64,000 nt of DNA from Sandaracinobacteroides saxicola (GCF_014117445.1 NZ_CP059851.1:1178001-1242000); one strand, 5' to 3'. Shown: positions 2,107 to 56,308, numbered from the stretch's first letter. Program-made: numbers and translations. The notes: generated by a model from the sequence alone, not told the origin.

Positions 2107-3257
2107 AGCGGCTGAGCATCCTGGGTGCGACCGGGTCGGTGGGGCGTTCGACGCTGGACCTGGTGGCGCGCAATCCGGAGCGCTTCCGGGTGCACGCGCT
2201 GACGGCGAATACCGATGCAGCCGCTTTGGCGGAGGCGGCCAAGGCGTGCGGCGCGGCGCTGGCGGTGGTGGCGGACGAGGGCGCCTGGCCGGCGTTGAAA
2301 GCGGCCCTGGCGGGGACGGGCATCGAGGCGGCGGCGGGCAGGGCGGCGGTGTGCGCGGCGGCGGCGGCGGAGGTGGACATCGTGCTGGCGGCGATCGTCG
2401 GCGCCGCCGGGCTGGAGCCGACGCTGGCGGCGGTGCGGCGCGGCACGGCGGTGGCGCTCGCCAACAAGGAGGCGCTGGTGTGCGCCGGCACGCTGATGAC
2501 CGCGGCGGCGGCGGCGAGCGGCGCGGCCCTGCTGCCGGTGGACAGCGAGCACAACGCCATCTTCCAGGTGCTGGAGGCGAAGGAGCGAATCGCGCGCATC
2601 ACACTGACGGCGAGCGGCGGGCCGTTCCGGGAAGCGTGCCTGGAAACGATGCGCGGCGCCACGCCGGCGGCGGCGGTGAAGCATCCGACCTGGTCGATGG
2701 GGGCGAAGATTTCGGTCGATTCGGCGACGCTGATGAACAAGGGGCTGGAGCTGATCGAGGCGTTCCACCTGTTCGGCGTGCGACCGGACCAGCTGGATGT
2801 GCTGATTCACCCGCAGTCGGTGGTGCATGGCCTGATCGAGTTCATCGACGGTTCGGTGCTGGCGCAGCTGGGCCCGGCGGACATGCGGGTGCCGATCGCC
2901 CATGCGCTGGCCTGGCCGGAGCGGATCGAAACGCCGGTTACGCGCCTGGACCTGGCGGCGCTGGGGCGGCTGGATTTTGCCGAAGCCGACCGCACGCGCT
3001 TTCCGGCGCTGGCACTGGCGGAGGCGGCGCTGGCGGAGGGCGCGTGCCGGCCCTGTGTGCTGAACGCCGCGAACGAGGTGGCGGTGGCGGCGTTCCTGGC
3101 CGGGCGCATCGGCTTCCTGGACATCGCTGGCGTCGTGGCGGACACGCTGGCGGCGATGCCGGCGGTGCCGCTGGGCAGCCTGGATGATGTGGATGCGGCG
3201 GATGCGGCGGCGCGTGCCCGCGCGGCTTCATTTGTCGTTCAGCGCGCGGCGGCGTAG
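2103..3257 (+). CDS. dxr: 1-deoxy-D-xylulose-5-phosphate reductoisomerase
   Basis: Dxr (IspC) converts DXP to 2-C-methylerythritol 4-phosphate with NADPH, the first committed step of the MEP isoprenoid pathway that feeds UppS. The 384-residue protein starts with the NADPH loop GATGSVG (residues 8-14). It carries the metal and substrate residues in DSEHNAIFQ, ASGGPFR, HPTWSMG and SVDSATLMNKGLE. The chosen ATG overlaps the cdsA stop (ATGA); an in-frame start 27 bases upstream would run inside cdsA and add a low-complexity Gly tail. Confidence 0.97.
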   Translation: MKRLSILGATGSVGRSTLDLVARNPERFRVHALTANTDAAALAEAAKACGAALAVVADEGAWPALKAALAGTGIEAAAGRAAVCAAAAAEVDIVLAAIVGAAGLEPTLAAVRRGTAVALANKEALVCAGTLMTAAAAASGAALLPVDSEHNAIFQVLEAKERIARITLTASGGPFREACLETMRGATPAAAVKHPTWSMGAKISVDSATLMNKGLELIEAFHLFGVRPDQLDVLIHPQSVVHGLIEFIDGSVLAQLGPADMRVPIAHALAWPERIETPVTRLDLAALGRLDFAEADRTRFPALALAEAALAEGACRPCVLNAANEVAVAAFLAGRIGFLDIAGVVADTLAAMPAVPLGSLDDVDAADAAARARAASFVVQRAAA

Positions 3258-3265
3258 GGGGAGAC

Positions 3266-4396
3266 ATGGACAACCCCGGGCTGCTGTTCTCGCTTGCCGC
3301 CTTCGCCGTGGTCATCGGCGTGTTGGTGTTCGTGCATGAGTTCGGCCATTATGGCGTGGCGCGGCTGTTCGGCATCAAGGTGGATACCTTCGCGGTGGGG
3401 TTCGGGCGGGAGGTGCTCGGCTGGACCGACAGGGCCGGCACGCGCTGGAAGCTGGGGTGGCTGCCGCTGGGTGGTTATGCCAAGTTCGCCGGCGACATGA
3501 ATGCGGCGAGCCAGCCCGACCCGGCGCTGGCGGCGCTGCCCGAAGATGAGCGCGCGGCGTTGTTCCAGTTCCGGCCGCTGTGGCAGCGGGCGGCGGTGGT
3601 GGCGGCCGGGCCGGCCATCAATTTCCTGTTCGCGATCCTGCTGTTCACGGTCTTCTTCATGACCTGGGGGCATGAATATACGCCACCGGTGGTGGGCGGC
3701 GTGGCGGCGGAATCGCCGGCGGCGAAGGCGGGTCTGCGCGCCGGTGACCGGATCGTGGCGGTGGATGGCGATGATGTCGAGCGGTTCGAGGATCTGGTGC
3801 GCGTGGTGCGGATGAACACCGGCACGCCGCTGAGCCTGACCGTTGAGCGCGGCACGGACAGGCTGACGCTGCGGGCGACGCCGCGCATCATCAGCGGCAA
3901 GGACCGGTTCGGCAGCCATTACTCGGTGGGCATGCTGGGGATGGCATCGGGCAGGCCGGTGGTGGTGCGGCGCTGGCCGGTGGACGCGACGGTGCATGCC
4001 GTGAAGGAAGTGCGGAACATCACCGTGGCGATGGCGGAGGGGCTGCACCAGGTGGTGACCGGGCGGCGCGACCTGACGGAATTGGGCGGGCCGATCAAGA
4101 TCGCGCAGTTCAGCGGGCAGAGTGCCGCGCTGGGGTTGCAGGCGTTCGTCACCTTCATCGCGCTGATCTCGATTAACCTCGGATTCATGAACCTGCTGCC
4201 AATCCCGATGCTGGACGGGGGCCATTTGTTGCTCTACGCGGTGGAGGGAGTTAGACGGCGTCCGCTCAATCCCAAAATCCAGGAATGGGCGTTCATGTCG
4301 GGGTTTGCACTGCTGCTGACCCTGATGCTGGTTCTCACATGGAATGATCTGGCGTCTGCCGGGGTGTGGAAACATCTGGCCGGGCTGGCAGGCTGA
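3266..4396 (+). CDS. rseP: RseP family site-2 zinc protease
   Basis: This intramembrane metalloprotease cleaves membrane-anchored anti-sigma factors or signal-peptide remnants. The 376-residue protein has the zinc motif HEFGH at residues 24-28 in the first membrane helix, one PDZ domain at about 125-200, and the second catalytic motif NLLPIPMLDGGH near the C terminus. A GGGGAGA ribosome binding site lies just before the ATG. Its place between dxr and bamA is the usual order in proteobacteria and ties it to envelope stress control. Confidence 0.96.
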   Translation: MDNPGLLFSLAAFAVVIGVLVFVHEFGHYGVARLFGIKVDTFAVGFGREVLGWTDRAGTRWKLGWLPLGGYAKFAGDMNAASQPDPALAALPEDERAALFQFRPLWQRAAVVAAGPAINFLFAILLFTVFFMTWGHEYTPPVVGGVAAESPAAKAGLRAGDRIVAVDGDDVERFEDLVRVVRMNTGTPLSLTVERGTDRLTLRATPRIISGKDRFGSHYSVGMLGMASGRPVVVRRWPVDATVHAVKEVRNITVAMAEGLHQVVTGRRDLTELGGPIKIAQFSGQSAALGLQAFVTFIALISINLGFMNLLPIPMLDGGHLLLYAVEGVRRRPLNPKIQEWAFMSGFALLLTLMLVLTWNDLASAGVWKHLAGLAG

Positions 4397-51738: not shown

Positions 51739-51815
51739 GCGGGTGTAGCTCAGTTGGTTAGAGTATCGGCCTGTCACGCCGAGGGTCGCGGGTTCAAGTC
51801 CCGTCACTCGCGCCA
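51739..51815 (+). tRNA. tRNA-Asp (anticodon GTC)
   Basis: The 77-base cloverleaf is complete. Acceptor arm GCGGGTG pairs with CACTCGC (one G-T pair). The D-loop reads AGCTCAGTTGGTTAGAG, the anticodon loop CTGTCAC has GTC at 51773-51775, and the T-loop reads GGGTTCAAGTCCC. The discriminator is G and CCA is encoded. The last 22 bases are overlapped on the other strand by the end of the UdgX-fusion gene. Confidence 0.97.
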
Positions 51816-53212
51816 TTTTCCCCCTCCACAAACGCCGCCGCCGCGCGCAGGTCGCTGACCAGCGCCGCCAACGCCGCATCCCGCGCCGCCGCATCCGGCA
51901 CCCGCAGCACCGCGCTCGGGTGCGCCGTGATCAGCCCCGCGGTCCCGTCCGGCAGCGCGAACACCCGCCCGCGTTCCTTCCCGATCGCCACCGCACGGCC
52001 GGTCAGGCTGCGCGCCGCCACCGCGCCCAGCATCACCGTCAGCGTCGGCGCCACCGCCTTGCGTTCCGCATTCAGCCACCAGCGGCACGCCTCGATCTCG
52101 CTCACATCCGCCTTGTCGTGGATGCGCCGCGGGCCGCGCTGCTCGAATTTGAAATGCTTGACGGCATTGGTCACATAAAGCCGCGCCCGATCCACCCCGG
52201 CCGCCGCCAGCGCCTGGTCCAGCAACTGCCCCGCCGGCCCCACGAACACCCGGCCCGCCACATCCTCCTGGTCGCCCGGCTGTTCCCCCACCAGCATCAG
52301 CCGGGCATCCGCCGGCCCCTCGCCGAACACCGTCTGCGTCGCCGGGCCGAACAAGGGGCAGCGCTTGCACCGCGCCGCCTCCGCCCGCAACCCGGTCAGG
52401 GCGGCGGCCGCGCCCTCCTCCTGATCGCCTTCCGGCATTGCCCGTTCCAGCATCGCCACCGTCCGCGCCTGCGCGCCGGCGATCATCCCGGGGATCAGCG
52501 CCGCCTCCGGCATGTTCTTCCAATATTTCTTCGGCATCTCGCTGGTCATCGCCTTCACCTTCAACCGCGCCGGATTGAAGATGCTGCTGAAATAGGTCTG
52601 CCAGATCGCCTCCACCGGGTCTTCCGCCGGCGCATCCCCCCGCGCCGCGCCCGGCAGGAAGGACAGCCCGGCCCCGTCCCAGTGCGCGCTGGCGTCGGGT
52701 GTCAGGATGGTCCAGCGCTGGTTGGCGAAGCGCCGAACGAAGAACCCGGCATTGAACCGCAGGATGTGATGCTCCGGCTCGAACCAGGCGATGAAATGCC
52801 CGCCCGCGTCATCCGCCACCTCGCGGAACCGCACGAACGCCCGCATCTTGTGCACGTCCCGCCCCACTCTTTTGGCCATCGCCTCCAGCCGGTCCACCAG
52901 CGGATCGGCCCGGTCCTGCAACAGCTTCGGCGCCGCCTGCAACCGCACCAGCGCCTGGTGCAGCAGCCGGAACCGCTCGCCGTCGCGGTGGCAGACCACG
53001 CGCTGCGCCAGCTCGATGAACCCGCGCGGCACCCGCAACGCCGCCGCTGGCGCCGCGTCCCGCTCCGGCTCGGTTCCGAACAGGTCGGGCGTCGTCACCC
53101 CCGCCACCTGCCAGTCGACATCGCCGGGCGGAACGCTCTCGCCCGTCAACCGCCGCGCCGCGGCGCGCCAGCCGTCGAAATCGGCCGGATGGTTCAGCAG
53201 GACCGTGGGCAT
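51794..53212 (-). CDS. DUF4130 - UdgX uracil-DNA glycosylase-family fusion
   Basis: The 472-residue protein joins an N-terminal DUF4130 domain (about residues 1-265) to a uracil-DNA glycosylase domain (about 270-465). The second half has CKRC (282-285), GEQPGDQED (309-317), VKHFKFEQRGPRRIHDKA with RRIH (His365), and HPSAVLR (431-437). The RRIH loop marks the UdgX branch, in which His forms a covalent bond with the uracil site. C282, C285 and C376 are candidate iron-sulfur ligands. A radical SAM protein of the family that co-occurs with these domains is encoded at 54555. Its 3' end lies under tRNA-Asp. Confidence 0.92.
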   Translation of the reverse strand: MPTVLLNHPADFDGWRAAARRLTGESVPPGDVDWQVAGVTTPDLFGTEPERDAAPAAALRVPRGFIELAQRVVCHRDGERFRLLHQALVRLQAAPKLLQDRADPLVDRLEAMAKRVGRDVHKMRAFVRFREVADDAGGHFIAWFEPEHHILRFNAGFFVRRFANQRWTILTPDASAHWDGAGLSFLPGAARGDAPAEDPVEAIWQTYFSSIFNPARLKVKAMTSEMPKKYWKNMPEAALIPGMIAGAQARTVAMLERAMPEGDQEEGAAAALTGLRAEAARCKRCPLFGPATQTVFGEGPADARLMLVGEQPGDQEDVAGRVFVGPAGQLLDQALAAAGVDRARLYVTNAVKHFKFEQRGPRRIHDKADVSEIEACRWWLNAERKAVAPTLTVMLGAVAARSLTGRAVAIGKERGRVFALPDGTAGLITAHPSAVLRVPDAAARDAALAALVSDLRAAAAFVEGENGASDGT

Positions 53213-53274
53213 CGGCGCGCCACACTGGATTTGCCGGCAACAGGCGCTACCATGCGCCGCGAAGGGAAACGTCC

Positions 53275-53958
53275 ATGGCCTCGATCCCGCCCGCCGTCCT
53301 CGCCGCCCGCAACGCCGTCCGCCAGCGCGCCCGCGACATGATCCGCAGCCACGAGGATTTCATCAACTACATGTACCTCGATTCCGTCAGCAAGGTGACG
53401 GTTGGCGTCGGCACCATGCTGCCCAGCGCGGCCGAGGCCGCGACGGTCAACATGGCGGACAAGACCGGCAAGCCCGCCACCGATGCCCAGGTGCGCGCCG
53501 AATGGAAACGCGTGCAGGACATCTCGCCCGCCGGCACCCCGCGCAACTTCAAGGCCAGCAGCTACCGCGACGCCGCCACGCTGTTCATCTCCGAAACCGA
53601 AGGCAACCGCCTGCTCGACCTGAAACTCGATGGCTTCATGACCATGATCCTCGGCTGGTTTCCGAAATTCCATGATTTTCCCGCCGACGGGCAGGTCGCG
53701 ATCATCGACATGACCTACAACCTCGGCAACCTGAAAAAGAAATTCCCGTCGCTGGTGAAAGCCGTGCAGAAATCCCCGCCGGACTGGGCGGAAGCCGCGA
53801 AACAGTCGAACCGCCCGCAGCTCAGCGCCGAACGCAACAAGGAAACCCGCAACCTGTTCCTCGCCGCCGATAAGGCCGCCCGCGCCGCCGCCAAAAGCCC
53901 CACCGGCCAGTCGCTGCGGCCCCCTCCCGCCACCAGCACGCCGCCCCGCCTGCCATGA
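53275..53958 (+). CDS. Lysozyme-like protein (T4 lysozyme/GH24-type fold)
   Basis: The 227-residue product has Glu27 (SHEDFINYMYLD), Asp36 and Thr42 (KVTVGVGTML). Their spacing of 9 and 6 residues equals that of Glu11, Asp20 and Thr26 in T4 lysozyme. DMTYNLGNLKKKFPSLVKAV also fits the GH24 fold. There is no signal peptide or membrane segment. No phage genes surround it, so it is unlikely to be a prophage endolysin. The C-terminal 30 residues are Pro/Thr-rich and may be disordered. Its stop overlaps the next gene by four bases. Confidence 0.78.
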   Translation: MASIPPAVLAARNAVRQRARDMIRSHEDFINYMYLDSVSKVTVGVGTMLPSAAEAATVNMADKTGKPATDAQVRAEWKRVQDISPAGTPRNFKASSYRDAATLFISETEGNRLLDLKLDGFMTMILGWFPKFHDFPADGQVAIIDMTYNLGNLKKKFPSLVKAVQKSPPDWAEAAKQSNRPQLSAERNKETRNLFLAADKAARAAAKSPTGQSLRPPPATSTPPRLP

Positions 53959-54461
53959 CGGCCGCCAGAACGCACGCGCTGATCGCGCTGGCGCTGCTGC
54001 TCGCCGCCTGCAAGCCCGACACGCCGGCCCAACCGGTGTCACCGGCCGAACCGGCCAAAGCCACCACCCCGCCGACCGCCCCCGTCGCCCCCGCCCCCTC
54101 ACAGGCGCCCGCCGCGATCGATCCGGCGCTGCTCGGCGCATGGCAACCCTATTCCCCCGGCAGCCAGGCGATGGGCGAACTCACCGTCACCCCCACCGGC
54201 CTCCGCTTCGCCAACGGCTTCAGCTTCCCCGTCACGCCCACCCCCACGCACCTCCTCCTGGGCACCGCCGGCGGCAAGGCGGCCATCGCCGATTTCTGCG
54301 GCAAGGCACCCCCCCGCGCCGCCACCCTGCGCCTCGACCCGCGCACCGATCGCGCCGTCCTGGCGCTCAGCCTGTACGACAGCGCCACCGGTCCCGGCCC
54401 CAACCCGGATTTCGACCCCGGCCTGTGCATGCGGGTCACCTTCGTCCGCGCCACGCCCTGA
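53955..54461 (+). CDS. Predicted lipoprotein of unknown function
   Basis: The 168-residue product has a type II signal peptide with lipobox LLAAC (Cys19), a Pro/Ala/Thr-rich linker (about 20-55), and a compact C-terminal domain that starts LLGAWQPYSPGSQAMGELTV. It has a Cys pair at FCGK and LCMR that may form a disulfide. No family is recognised. It overlaps the lysozyme-like gene by four bases, so the two are probably one operon; the pair may act in the periplasm if the lysozyme-like protein is exported. Its stop lies in the second hairpin of repeat copy C. Confidence 0.75.
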   Translation: MTAARTHALIALALLLAACKPDTPAQPVSPAEPAKATTPPTAPVAPAPSQAPAAIDPALLGAWQPYSPGSQAMGELTVTPTGLRFANGFSFPVTPTPTHLLLGTAGGKAAIADFCGKAPPRAATLRLDPRTDRAVLALSLYDSATGPGPNPDFDPGLCMRVTFVRATP

Positions 54462-54554
54462 CCATGCATTTTGGCGGGCCCAAAATGCATGGTCAGGTTT
54501 TTGTCGTCGTGCATCTCTATGCGGAAAACCGGTTCCCCCATTTCCGCGATGCAC
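54458..54554 (-). repeat. Convergent-gap hairpin repeat, copy C
   Basis: Read on the minus strand, the copy starts directly after the radical SAM gene stop. Its 5' hairpin has outer arms GTGCATC and GATGCAC (54548-54554 and 54509-54515) and perfect inner arms GCGGAAA and TTTCCGC. The linker GACGACAAAAACCTGA follows. The second hairpin has arms CTGACCATGCATTTTGG (54458-54474) and its exact complement (54480-54496), 17 pairs. The second-stem sequence is unrelated to that of copy B. Confidence 0.85.
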
Positions 54555-55784
54555 TTAAAATAACTCCAACTGCGGCCCGGCCGGCCGCACCGCCAGCCCC
54601 GCGCCGTCCAGCAAACCCCCCGGCTGCCACCCCTCCGCCACGATCCATGGCCGTACCTTCGATATGCTCGCCACCAGCCGGCCGACATCCTCCAGCCGCA
54701 ACCGCCGCCAGCGGCGCGCGCTCAGGATGCGCCCCACCACCTTCGGCCCCAACCCCGGCACACGCAGCAGCTCCGCCTTCGCGGCACGATTGACATCCAG
54801 CGGGAACCGCCCCCGGTTCGCCAGCGCCCAGGCCAGCTTCGGGTCCATGTCCAGCGGCAGGAAGCCCGCCGGCGCCGCCGCCTGCACCTCCCCCACGGCA
54901 AAGCCATAGAAGCGCATCATCCAGTCCGCTTGGTACAGCCGATGCTCGCGCAGCAGCGGCGGCGATTTCAGCGGCAACACGGTGCTGGCATCCGGGATCG
55001 GGCTGAACGCCGAATAATAGACGCGCCGCATCCCGTATGCGTCATACAGCCCCTTCGCCCGGCCGATGATCGCCCGGTCGTCTGCCGCGTCCGCCCCCAC
55101 GATCATCTGCGTCGATTGCCCCGCCGGCGCATAGCCGGGCGCGTGCCGGTATCGCCGCGTTGCGTCACGGGCGTCCAGGATCGCCGTCTTCAGCGTCCCC
55201 ATCGCCCCCTCGATCCGTCGCGGCGCCTTCTCCGGCGCCAGCGCCGCCAGCCCCGCATCGGTCGGCAGCTCGATGTTGATCGACAATCGGTCGGCCCAGC
55301 GCCCCGCCTCTTCCACCAGCGCCGGATCGGCATCGGGAATGGTCTTCAGATGGATGTAGCCGCGAAAATCATGCTCCTCGCGCAATGTCCGCGCCACCCG
55401 GATCAGGCTCTCCATCGTATAGTTGGACGAGCGGATGATCCCCGAGGACAGGAACAACCCCTCGATATAGTTGCGCGCATAAAAGCCCAGTGTCAGCCGC
55501 ACCACCTCCTCCACCGTGAAGCGCGCGCGCCGCACATTCGATGACCGCCGGTTGATGCAATAGGCGCAATCGAACACGCAGACATTGGTCAGCAGGATCT
55601 TCAGCAGGCTGATGCAGCGCCCGTCCGGCGCATAGGCATGGCAGATCCCCATCCCCTCGGTGGATCCCATCCCCTTCCCGCCCACGCTATTCCGCTTCGA
55701 GGTGCCACTGGACGCGCACGAAGCATCATATTTCGCCGCATCCGCCAGGATCGCCAGCTTTTCCTTCAAGTCCAATCGCGCCAT
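54555..55784 (-). CDS. Radical SAM protein linked to uracil-DNA glycosylase
   Basis: The 409-residue protein has the radical SAM cluster motif CVFDCAYC (Cys69, Cys73, Cys76) and, near residues 340-360, a helix-hairpin-helix DNA-binding motif (LLRVPGLGPKVVGRIL). It also has GFYARNYIEGLFLSSGI and YYSAFSPIPDASTVLP. This is the family usually described as a putative DNA modification or repair protein that co-occurs with UdgX and DUF4130. The chemistry is unknown. It starts at ATG 55784 behind AAGGAA. The DUF2306 gene lies upstream on the same strand; repeat copy C follows its stop. Confidence 0.92.
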   Translation of the reverse strand: MARLDLKEKLAILADAAKYDASCASSGTSKRNSVGGKGMGSTEGMGICHAYAPDGRCISLLKILLTNVCVFDCAYCINRRSSNVRRARFTVEEVVRLTLGFYARNYIEGLFLSSGIIRSSNYTMESLIRVARTLREEHDFRGYIHLKTIPDADPALVEEAGRWADRLSINIELPTDAGLAALAPEKAPRRIEGAMGTLKTAILDARDATRRYRHAPGYAPAGQSTQMIVGADAADDRAIIGRAKGLYDAYGMRRVYYSAFSPIPDASTVLPLKSPPLLREHRLYQADWMMRFYGFAVGEVQAAAPAGFLPLDMDPKLAWALANRGRFPLDVNRAAKAELLRVPGLGPKVVGRILSARRWRRLRLEDVGRLVASISKVRPWIVAEGWQPGGLLDGAGLAVRPAGPQLELF

Positions 55785-55807
55785 TCGTTCCTTATATGTT
55801 CTCTTCT

Positions 55808-56308
55808 TCACCCCGTCAACCACGTCCCCAGCAGCCGCCCGAAGGGCAGGGTGAAGAACCCCGCCAGCAGCAGCGCGCCGATCACCAGCGCCTGCACCGC
55901 GCGCTGATGGCCCGCCGCATCGTGCCGCCGCGCCGCCAGCACCAGCCGCGGCACCTGCACCAGCACCAGCAGGCTCAGCGCATGGATCACCGAAAAATCC
56001 CCGCTGAACACCCCGTACCCGCTGCTCCCCACCTTGAAGAACAGGCTCACCCCCGCCGTCACCAGCATCAGCGCCACCCACAGCCAGCCCAGCCGCCGGT
56101 GCCCGCGTGTGCCCTTCGCCCGCAGCAGCATCGCCGGCGTCAGCGCCAGCGCCCCCAGCATCGTCAGCAGGTGCACCCACACCAGCGGCGGCAACCGCCC
56201 CCATTGCGCCTGGCCCCGCGCCACCGCCAGCAGCACCAGCGCCAGCAGCAGCGCCGAAAAGCCCGCCAGCACCGCGTTCATCCCCCGCCGCTCAACCGCA
56301 ATTGCCAT
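55808..56308 (-). CDS. DUF2306-type membrane protein
   Basis: The 166-residue protein has four hydrophobic segments with LPPLVWVHLLTMLGALALTP, TRGHRRLGWLWVALMLVTAG, DFSVIHALSLLVLVQVPRL and AAGHQRAVQALVIGALL. Conserved His residues in the first, second and fourth segments suggest metal or haem binding, as in other DUF2306 proteins. The function is unknown. It lies 23 bases upstream of the radical SAM gene on the same strand, so the two may share a transcript. Confidence 0.8.
   Translation of the reverse strand: MAIAVERRGMNAVLAGFSALLLALVLLAVARGQAQWGRLPPLVWVHLLTMLGALALTPAMLLRAKGTRGHRRLGWLWVALMLVTAGVSLFFKVGSSGYGVFSGDFSVIHALSLLVLVQVPRLVLAARRHDAAGHQRAVQALVIGALLLAGFFTLPFGRLLGTWLTG

Follow-up and report, generated by a model that had tools for sequence, protein, structure and literature searches.

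A predicted LexA-controlled radical SAM-DUF4130 gene pair with an optional UdgX module in Sandaracinobacteroides saxicola

Introduction

The pairing of the protein families considered here is not new, because NCBIfam already links TIGR03914 (UdgX), TIGR03915 (SAM_7_link_chp) and TIGR03916 (rSAM_link_UDG), the last of which we take to be equivalent to COG4277. An operon consisting of COG1573 and COG4277 has been assigned to the SOS regulons of Alphaproteobacteria, Verrucomicrobia and Bacteroidetes (PMC8565304), so that the families, their link and, largely, their SOS control are known. DUF4130 has been linked to SplB-like radical SAM proteins and to UDGs by Aravind and colleagues in 2013 (PMC3765255), and UdgX alone is described as leaving a covalent complex, the resolution of which is ascribed to RecA-dependent pathways or proteases (PMC10359453).

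Here we analyse such a locus in Sandaracinobacteroides saxicola, the genome of which is a single contig of 3.36 Mb; the window, that is, the whole stretch of DNA analysed, spans 64,000 nucleotides. Judging from the sequence comparisons, the advance over previous work is fourfold: the unit can dispense with UdgX, the operator switches across lineages, the promoter has a characteristic anatomy, and the radical SAM protein contains an additional cysteine triad. We propose that the locus encodes an SOS-inducible DNA lesion-processing system with a LexA-controlled radical SAM-DUF4130 core and an optional UdgX, a reading that we hold to be rather probable.

Results

Layout of the locus

The fusion gene is located downstream of the radical SAM gene, on the same strand, across a gap of 1.3 kb that contains two genes of the opposite orientation and an inverted repeat:

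51794-53212, minus strand: DUF4130-UdgX fusion gene, 472 aa (TIGR03915 and TIGR03914; AF2 model, pLDDT 90.4)
53275-53958, plus strand: intervening gene with a marginal phage-lysozyme match (PF00959, 22.4 bits, cut-off 22.3)
53955-54461, plus strand: intervening gene with a lipoprotein-like N-terminus (ALLLAAC), an ORF call
54457-54497, plus strand: perfect 18-bp stem with a 5-nt loop, followed by TTTTTG, an inverted repeat with a T tail
54555-55784, minus strand: radical SAM gene, 409 aa (TIGR03916; AF2 model, pLDDT 84.5)

The ORF and repeat coordinates thus agree with the first-pass annotation, which described both genes as minus-strand, with two plus-strand genes and a repeat between them. 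Among 120 loci, the distance between the radical SAM gene and the fusion gene is at most 44 bp in 86 and 121-2975 bp in the remaining ones. Of the lysozyme-like and lipoprotein-like genes that split the pair here (53275-54461), the first has a marginal Phage_lysozyme match, and the second (53955-54461, plus strand) has no family match in the Pfam scan. The hairpin at 54457-54497 is likely to be the terminator of these two genes; it is present in a single copy in the whole genome, which rules out a dispersed repeat.

Two further features of the layout were observed. The 3′ end of the fusion ORF overlaps the 3′ end of a tRNA-Asp gene (51739-51815, plus strand) in antisense over 22 nt (51794-51815). 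In 20 of the 120 loci (for example, L083, L087, L096, L111 and L127), a hemerythrin HHE gene (PF01814) is inserted between the radical SAM gene and the fusion gene, and its product is possibly a third partner or an oxygen or iron sensor; a search of the source genome for a hemerythrin match yielded none.

The DUF4130-UdgX fusion protein

The fusion protein consists of two domains, with the glycosylase in the C-terminal half:

52505-52975, minus strand: DUF4130 domain, residues 80-236 (PF13566, 7.6e-41)
51842-52498, minus strand: UdgX domain, residues 239-457 (TIGR03914, 290 bits)
52118-52129, minus strand: R-loop RRIH, residues 362-365, the putative covalent-capture loop (UdgX alignment)

Both assignments are well above the curated NCBIfam thresholds (TIGR03915, 223 bits vs a cut-off of 112; TIGR03914, 290 bits vs 190) and are matched in Pfam (DUF4130, 140 vs 27 bits; UDG, 1.6e-29), in agreement with the original description of the gene as a fusion of DUF4130 to a UdgX-type glycosylase with an RRIH loop. 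All UdgX motifs, as defined previously (PMC10359453), are present, namely, motif A GEQPG, the R-loop RRIH and motif B HPS-LR, along with the family score above the cut-off. In the alignment with Mycobacterium smegmatis UdgX, H365 occupies the position of the covalent H109, and R363 and H365 are invariant among the 63 aligned fusions.

The DUF4130 domain is characterized by conserved basic and aromatic residues and contains no conserved cysteine; R128, F129, P146, R161, W204, R216, P227, W231 and E236 are retained as far as Bacteroidota and Clostridia. A sequence search of this domain against the PDB produced no match, and the list returned by the fold search for the fusion protein was filled by matches to the UdgX half.

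The radical SAM gene is paired with DUF4130, and UdgX is optional

The first-pass annotation stated that the three families co-occur, and the gene neighbourhoods bear this out for the radical SAM protein and DUF4130 in particular. When the family cut-offs were applied to 299 Pseudomonadota genomes, TIGR03916 was detected in 53, TIGR03915 in 56 and TIGR03914 in 52; a Caulobacter genome is among those that contain all three. DUF4130 is encoded downstream of the radical SAM gene, on the same strand, in 53/53 genomes (Fisher p 1e-55, for genomes that are not independent), and without it in three, in one of these near a contig end. Fused UdgX is found in 39 of the 53 genomes with the radical SAM gene and is absent in 13, the 14th locus being cut by a contig end. 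In addition, UdgX is above its cut-off in 10 genomes in which DUF4130 and the radical SAM protein are not above theirs. Parabacteroides, Spirosoma, Subdoligranulum, Acetoanaerobium and an Acinetobacter record each encode the radical SAM protein and a DUF4130 protein of 244-286 residues, with no UdgX. The invariable pairing, combined with the existence of pairs that lack UdgX, points to the radical SAM protein and DUF4130 as the obligatory core; by its distribution, UdgX is an optional module, which certain lineages have added to this core and which is found on its own as well.

Locus L238 in genome G218 encompasses an intact UdgX and a DUF4130 remnant with a stop codon, and the radical SAM gene is gone; as read from this sequence, the core pair has been lost and UdgX retained.

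These distributions bear directly on the possibility, raised at the outset, that the radical step acts on UdgX-trapped DNA, for example, in the release or repair of the UdgX-abasic cross-link. In 39 of 53 genomes, UdgX is fused to DUF4130, the obligatory partner, and R363 and H365 are invariant in 63 fusions; both observations are compatible with such a role, as is the report that the UdgX covalent complex is resolved by RecA-dependent pathways or proteases (PMC10359453). Nevertheless, 13 Pseudomonadota genomes as well as Bacteroidota and Clostridia possess the pair without UdgX, and, conversely, UdgX occurs without the pair in 10 genomes and persists beside a DUF4130 remnant in G218. A radical step on UdgX-captured DNA is therefore not the general mechanism and could operate in the fused form only; as an explanation of the system, we consider it improbable and favour a radical SAM-DUF4130 core that would function with or without UdgX.

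A predicted LexA operator overlaps the promoter of the radical SAM gene

The short gap between the radical SAM gene and the gene upstream contains a compact set of predicted regulatory elements:

55787-55801, minus strand: predicted LexA box GAACATATAAGGAAC
55791-55796, minus strand: -10 element TATAAG, within the LexA box (logo of 96 distinct promoters)
55814-55819, minus strand: -35 element TTGACG, with a 17-nt spacer to the -10 element (same logo)

The sequence GAACATATAAGGAAC, GTTCN7GTTC on the opposite strand, is the alphaproteobacterial direct-repeat LexA operator, for which a consensus has been described (PMC9578287). The logo of 96 distinct alphaproteobacterial promoters consists of a -35 element CTnGAC (CTTGAC-like), a 17-nt spacer and TATAAN within the box, with the ATG start codon at the expected +1, about 7 nt past TATAAN. 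With this arrangement, the mRNA of the radical SAM gene probably has no leader, and the -10 element would be covered by bound LexA.

A LexA box is located within 150 bp of the start of the radical SAM gene in 78 of 80 named alphaproteobacterial loci, including those of Rhizobium, Brevundimonas, Bosea, Devosia and Niveispirillum, and in 48 of these it is found at -17; the corresponding frequency among control slices is 27/3686 (0.7%). In the order-level set, the same repeat is present in 39 of 44 loci, in most cases at a distance of 17 bp from the start codon; of the other five, L030, L088, L089 and L093 carry it in the opposite orientation, and L001, the most distant, has a spacing of six. Exact E. 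coli-type CTGTN8ACAG sites are found in the non-alphaproteobacterial loci L180 (Caballeronia), L211, L212 and L213, and in 13 further non-alphaproteobacterial genomes, the site is exact in nine, has one mismatch in three and is absent in one. By these motifs, the operator outside Alphaproteobacteria switches to the type of the respective lineage. Within the source genome, the LexA motif occurs 69 times vs 27 for the reversed pattern, and also precedes uvrA, uvrD, dinB, an imuA-like gene and an HhH-GPD glycosylase gene. Since SOS control was already predicted (PMC8565304), the present promoter data confirm and extend that prediction.

Strong LexA boxes were also noticed in front of genes for DUF5131 and PA0069-family radical SAM proteins (L063 and L064; G000:C1:1722308 and G000:C1:2020728), which are candidates for two more SOS-linked proteins.

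An own LexA box for the separated UdgX fusion gene was sought and rejected, with none within the window and, among the separated relatives, one in L133 alone. With two opposite-strand genes in between and no box of its own, the fusion gene appears either to have lost SOS control or to depend on read-through antisense to the two plus-strand genes.

The predicted SOS promoter, along with the 53/53 co-occurrence, lends support to the DNA repair system proposed in the first-pass annotation, although SOS control is no proof of direct action on DNA. A DNA modification or phage-defence system is another reading. The NCBIfam name permits "DNA modification/repair", but the predicted LexA control involves two kinds of operator, the operon is mostly chromosomal, 0 PADLOC families were matched, and homologues were detected in only 10 phage records, most of these short unannotated faecal scaffolds. 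We accordingly give hardly any credence to modification or defence and retain lesion processing as the preferred function. A phage or mobile origin was discarded as well: scans of viral contigs yielded two radical SAM loci and one DUF4130 locus, and phage records are few.

The radical SAM protein and its additional cysteines

The radical SAM protein is a confident member of its family (TIGR03916, 544.6 bits vs a cut-off of 343.5), with the nearest named relatives in Sphingomonadales and a start at 55784 that agrees with the relatives. Three of its regions are of interest:

55557-55580, minus strand: radical SAM motif C69-x3-C73-x2-C76 (invariant in alignments)
55614-55718, minus strand: additional invariant cysteines C23, C48 (followed by H49) and C57 (alignments)
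54645-54797, minus strand: C-terminal helix-hairpin-helix (HhH) region, approximately residues 330-380 (HHH_3/HHH_5, sub-threshold)

The CxxxCxxC motif and the HhH had both been noted before this analysis. The former is C69-x3-C73-x2-C76 and holds without exception; the latter is sub-threshold in the source protein (20.7 and 20.0 bits vs the Pfam cut-off of 27), where the region aligns weakly with ComEA-type HhH, and surpasses the Pfam cut-off at the same place in the homologue L179.

C23, C48 and C57, with the spacing CX24CX8C, are invariant in a 62-row alignment, in 34/34 further matches and in all distant members with DUF4130. They are lost only in L179 from Gemmatirosa (3001-4263), a homologue that scores 303 bits, below the family cut-off, with no DUF4130 anywhere on the record. 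Gemmatirosa was the sole triad-less outgroup recovered from a plasmid collection, so the link between the triad and DUF4130 is based on one negative case, and L179 possibly represents a separate radical SAM-HhH subfamily. In the AF2 model, residues 26-45 mostly have a pLDDT below 50, and the stretch with the additional cysteines ranges from 44 to 65, so that a grouping of the three cysteines near the active site is conjectural.

At Z 17-18, the best fold matches of the model are HydE, lipoyl synthase, MqnE and biotin synthase, several of which carry an auxiliary Fe-S cluster. The invariance of the triad, taken together with these neighbours, makes a second Fe-S cluster at C23, C48 and C57 likely, as far as sequence and fold comparison can tell; in lipoyl synthase, the cysteine spacing differs from CX24CX8C.

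Two other readings of this protein have to be considered. An SplB-like radical SAM photoproduct lyase that directly reverses the lesion, with DUF4130 acting on thymines, would fit the published link of DUF4130 to SplB-like radical SAM proteins and UDGs (PMC3765255), and UV damage is compatible with SOS control. However, there is no SplB structure among the best 50 fold matches of the model, which leaves room for a lower-ranking match, and the additional invariant triad suggests auxiliary-cluster chemistry, so that we deem this unlikely. An RNA substrate, for example, in the repair of damage-modified tRNA, is brought to mind by MiaB and RlmN among the fold neighbours but is very unlikely, given that the HhH region, the LexA control and the fusion to a DNA glycosylase all indicate DNA. 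We thus adhere to radical-based processing of DNA lesions by the radical SAM-DUF4130 core.

Discussion

Under the proposed mechanism, LexA would reside on the -10 element of the radical SAM promoter until DNA damage releases it, whereupon the apparently leaderless mRNA would be made. The C-terminal HhH region would then tether the radical SAM protein to damaged DNA; the protein would perform SAM-derived radical chemistry on a damaged nucleotide, probably with the participation of the second Fe-S cluster at C23, C48 and C57. Its obligatory partner, DUF4130, would probably bind DNA or present the substrate, in view of its conserved basic and aromatic residues and its lack of a conserved cysteine. 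In many Proteobacteria, UdgX would be an optional addition to the same response, with uracil or abasic sites as the positions that it caps. The genes, the operator, the pairing, the optional status of UdgX and the cysteine triad can be read from the sequences; DNA as the substrate, the second cluster and this division of labour are what we infer from them.

A more specific version, which we put forward tentatively and with some doubt, is that the radical SAM-DUF4130 pair constitutes a radical-based DNA repair enzyme that is widespread and induced by the SOS response, with an auxiliary Fe-S cluster in its N-terminal part and UdgX as a secondary module. Its target would be a lesion not handled in this manner by any known repair enzyme. 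If this is true, radical SAM DNA repair would comprise a second kind, in addition to that represented by spore photoproduct lyase.

The analysis makes a widespread SOS operon directly testable, with the radical SAM protein and DUF4130, not UdgX, as the key pair, and removes the resolution of UdgX cross-links as a general explanation. It predicts the timing, the operon being made after LexA cleavage, singles out residues for analysis (C23, C48 and C57 in the radical SAM protein; R128, R161, W204, R216 and W231 in DUF4130), and identifies lineages with a simple two-gene form that lacks UdgX.

Compared with the known systems, all three NCBIfam families are matched above their curated cut-offs, and the pairing is what these families are named for, but the genes here are 1.3 kb apart, with opposite-strand genes between them. 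As in the COG1573-COG4277 operon (PMC8565304), a UDG-family gene is combined with COG4277 under predicted LexA control; there, the operon is considered a base excision repair system, whereas here the core consists of the radical SAM protein and DUF4130, with UdgX optional. M. smegmatis UdgX is 51% identical to the UdgX half, with closely similar structures (Z about 30) and shared GEQPG, RRIH and HPS-LR motifs, but is a stand-alone protein, whereas UdgX here is fused behind DUF4130. Finally, the radical SAM core is structurally closest to HydE, LipA and BioB, and the additional cysteines resemble those of auxiliary-cluster enzymes; identity to these proteins is just 11-18%, however, and the C-terminal HhH tail belongs to the radical SAM protein described here.
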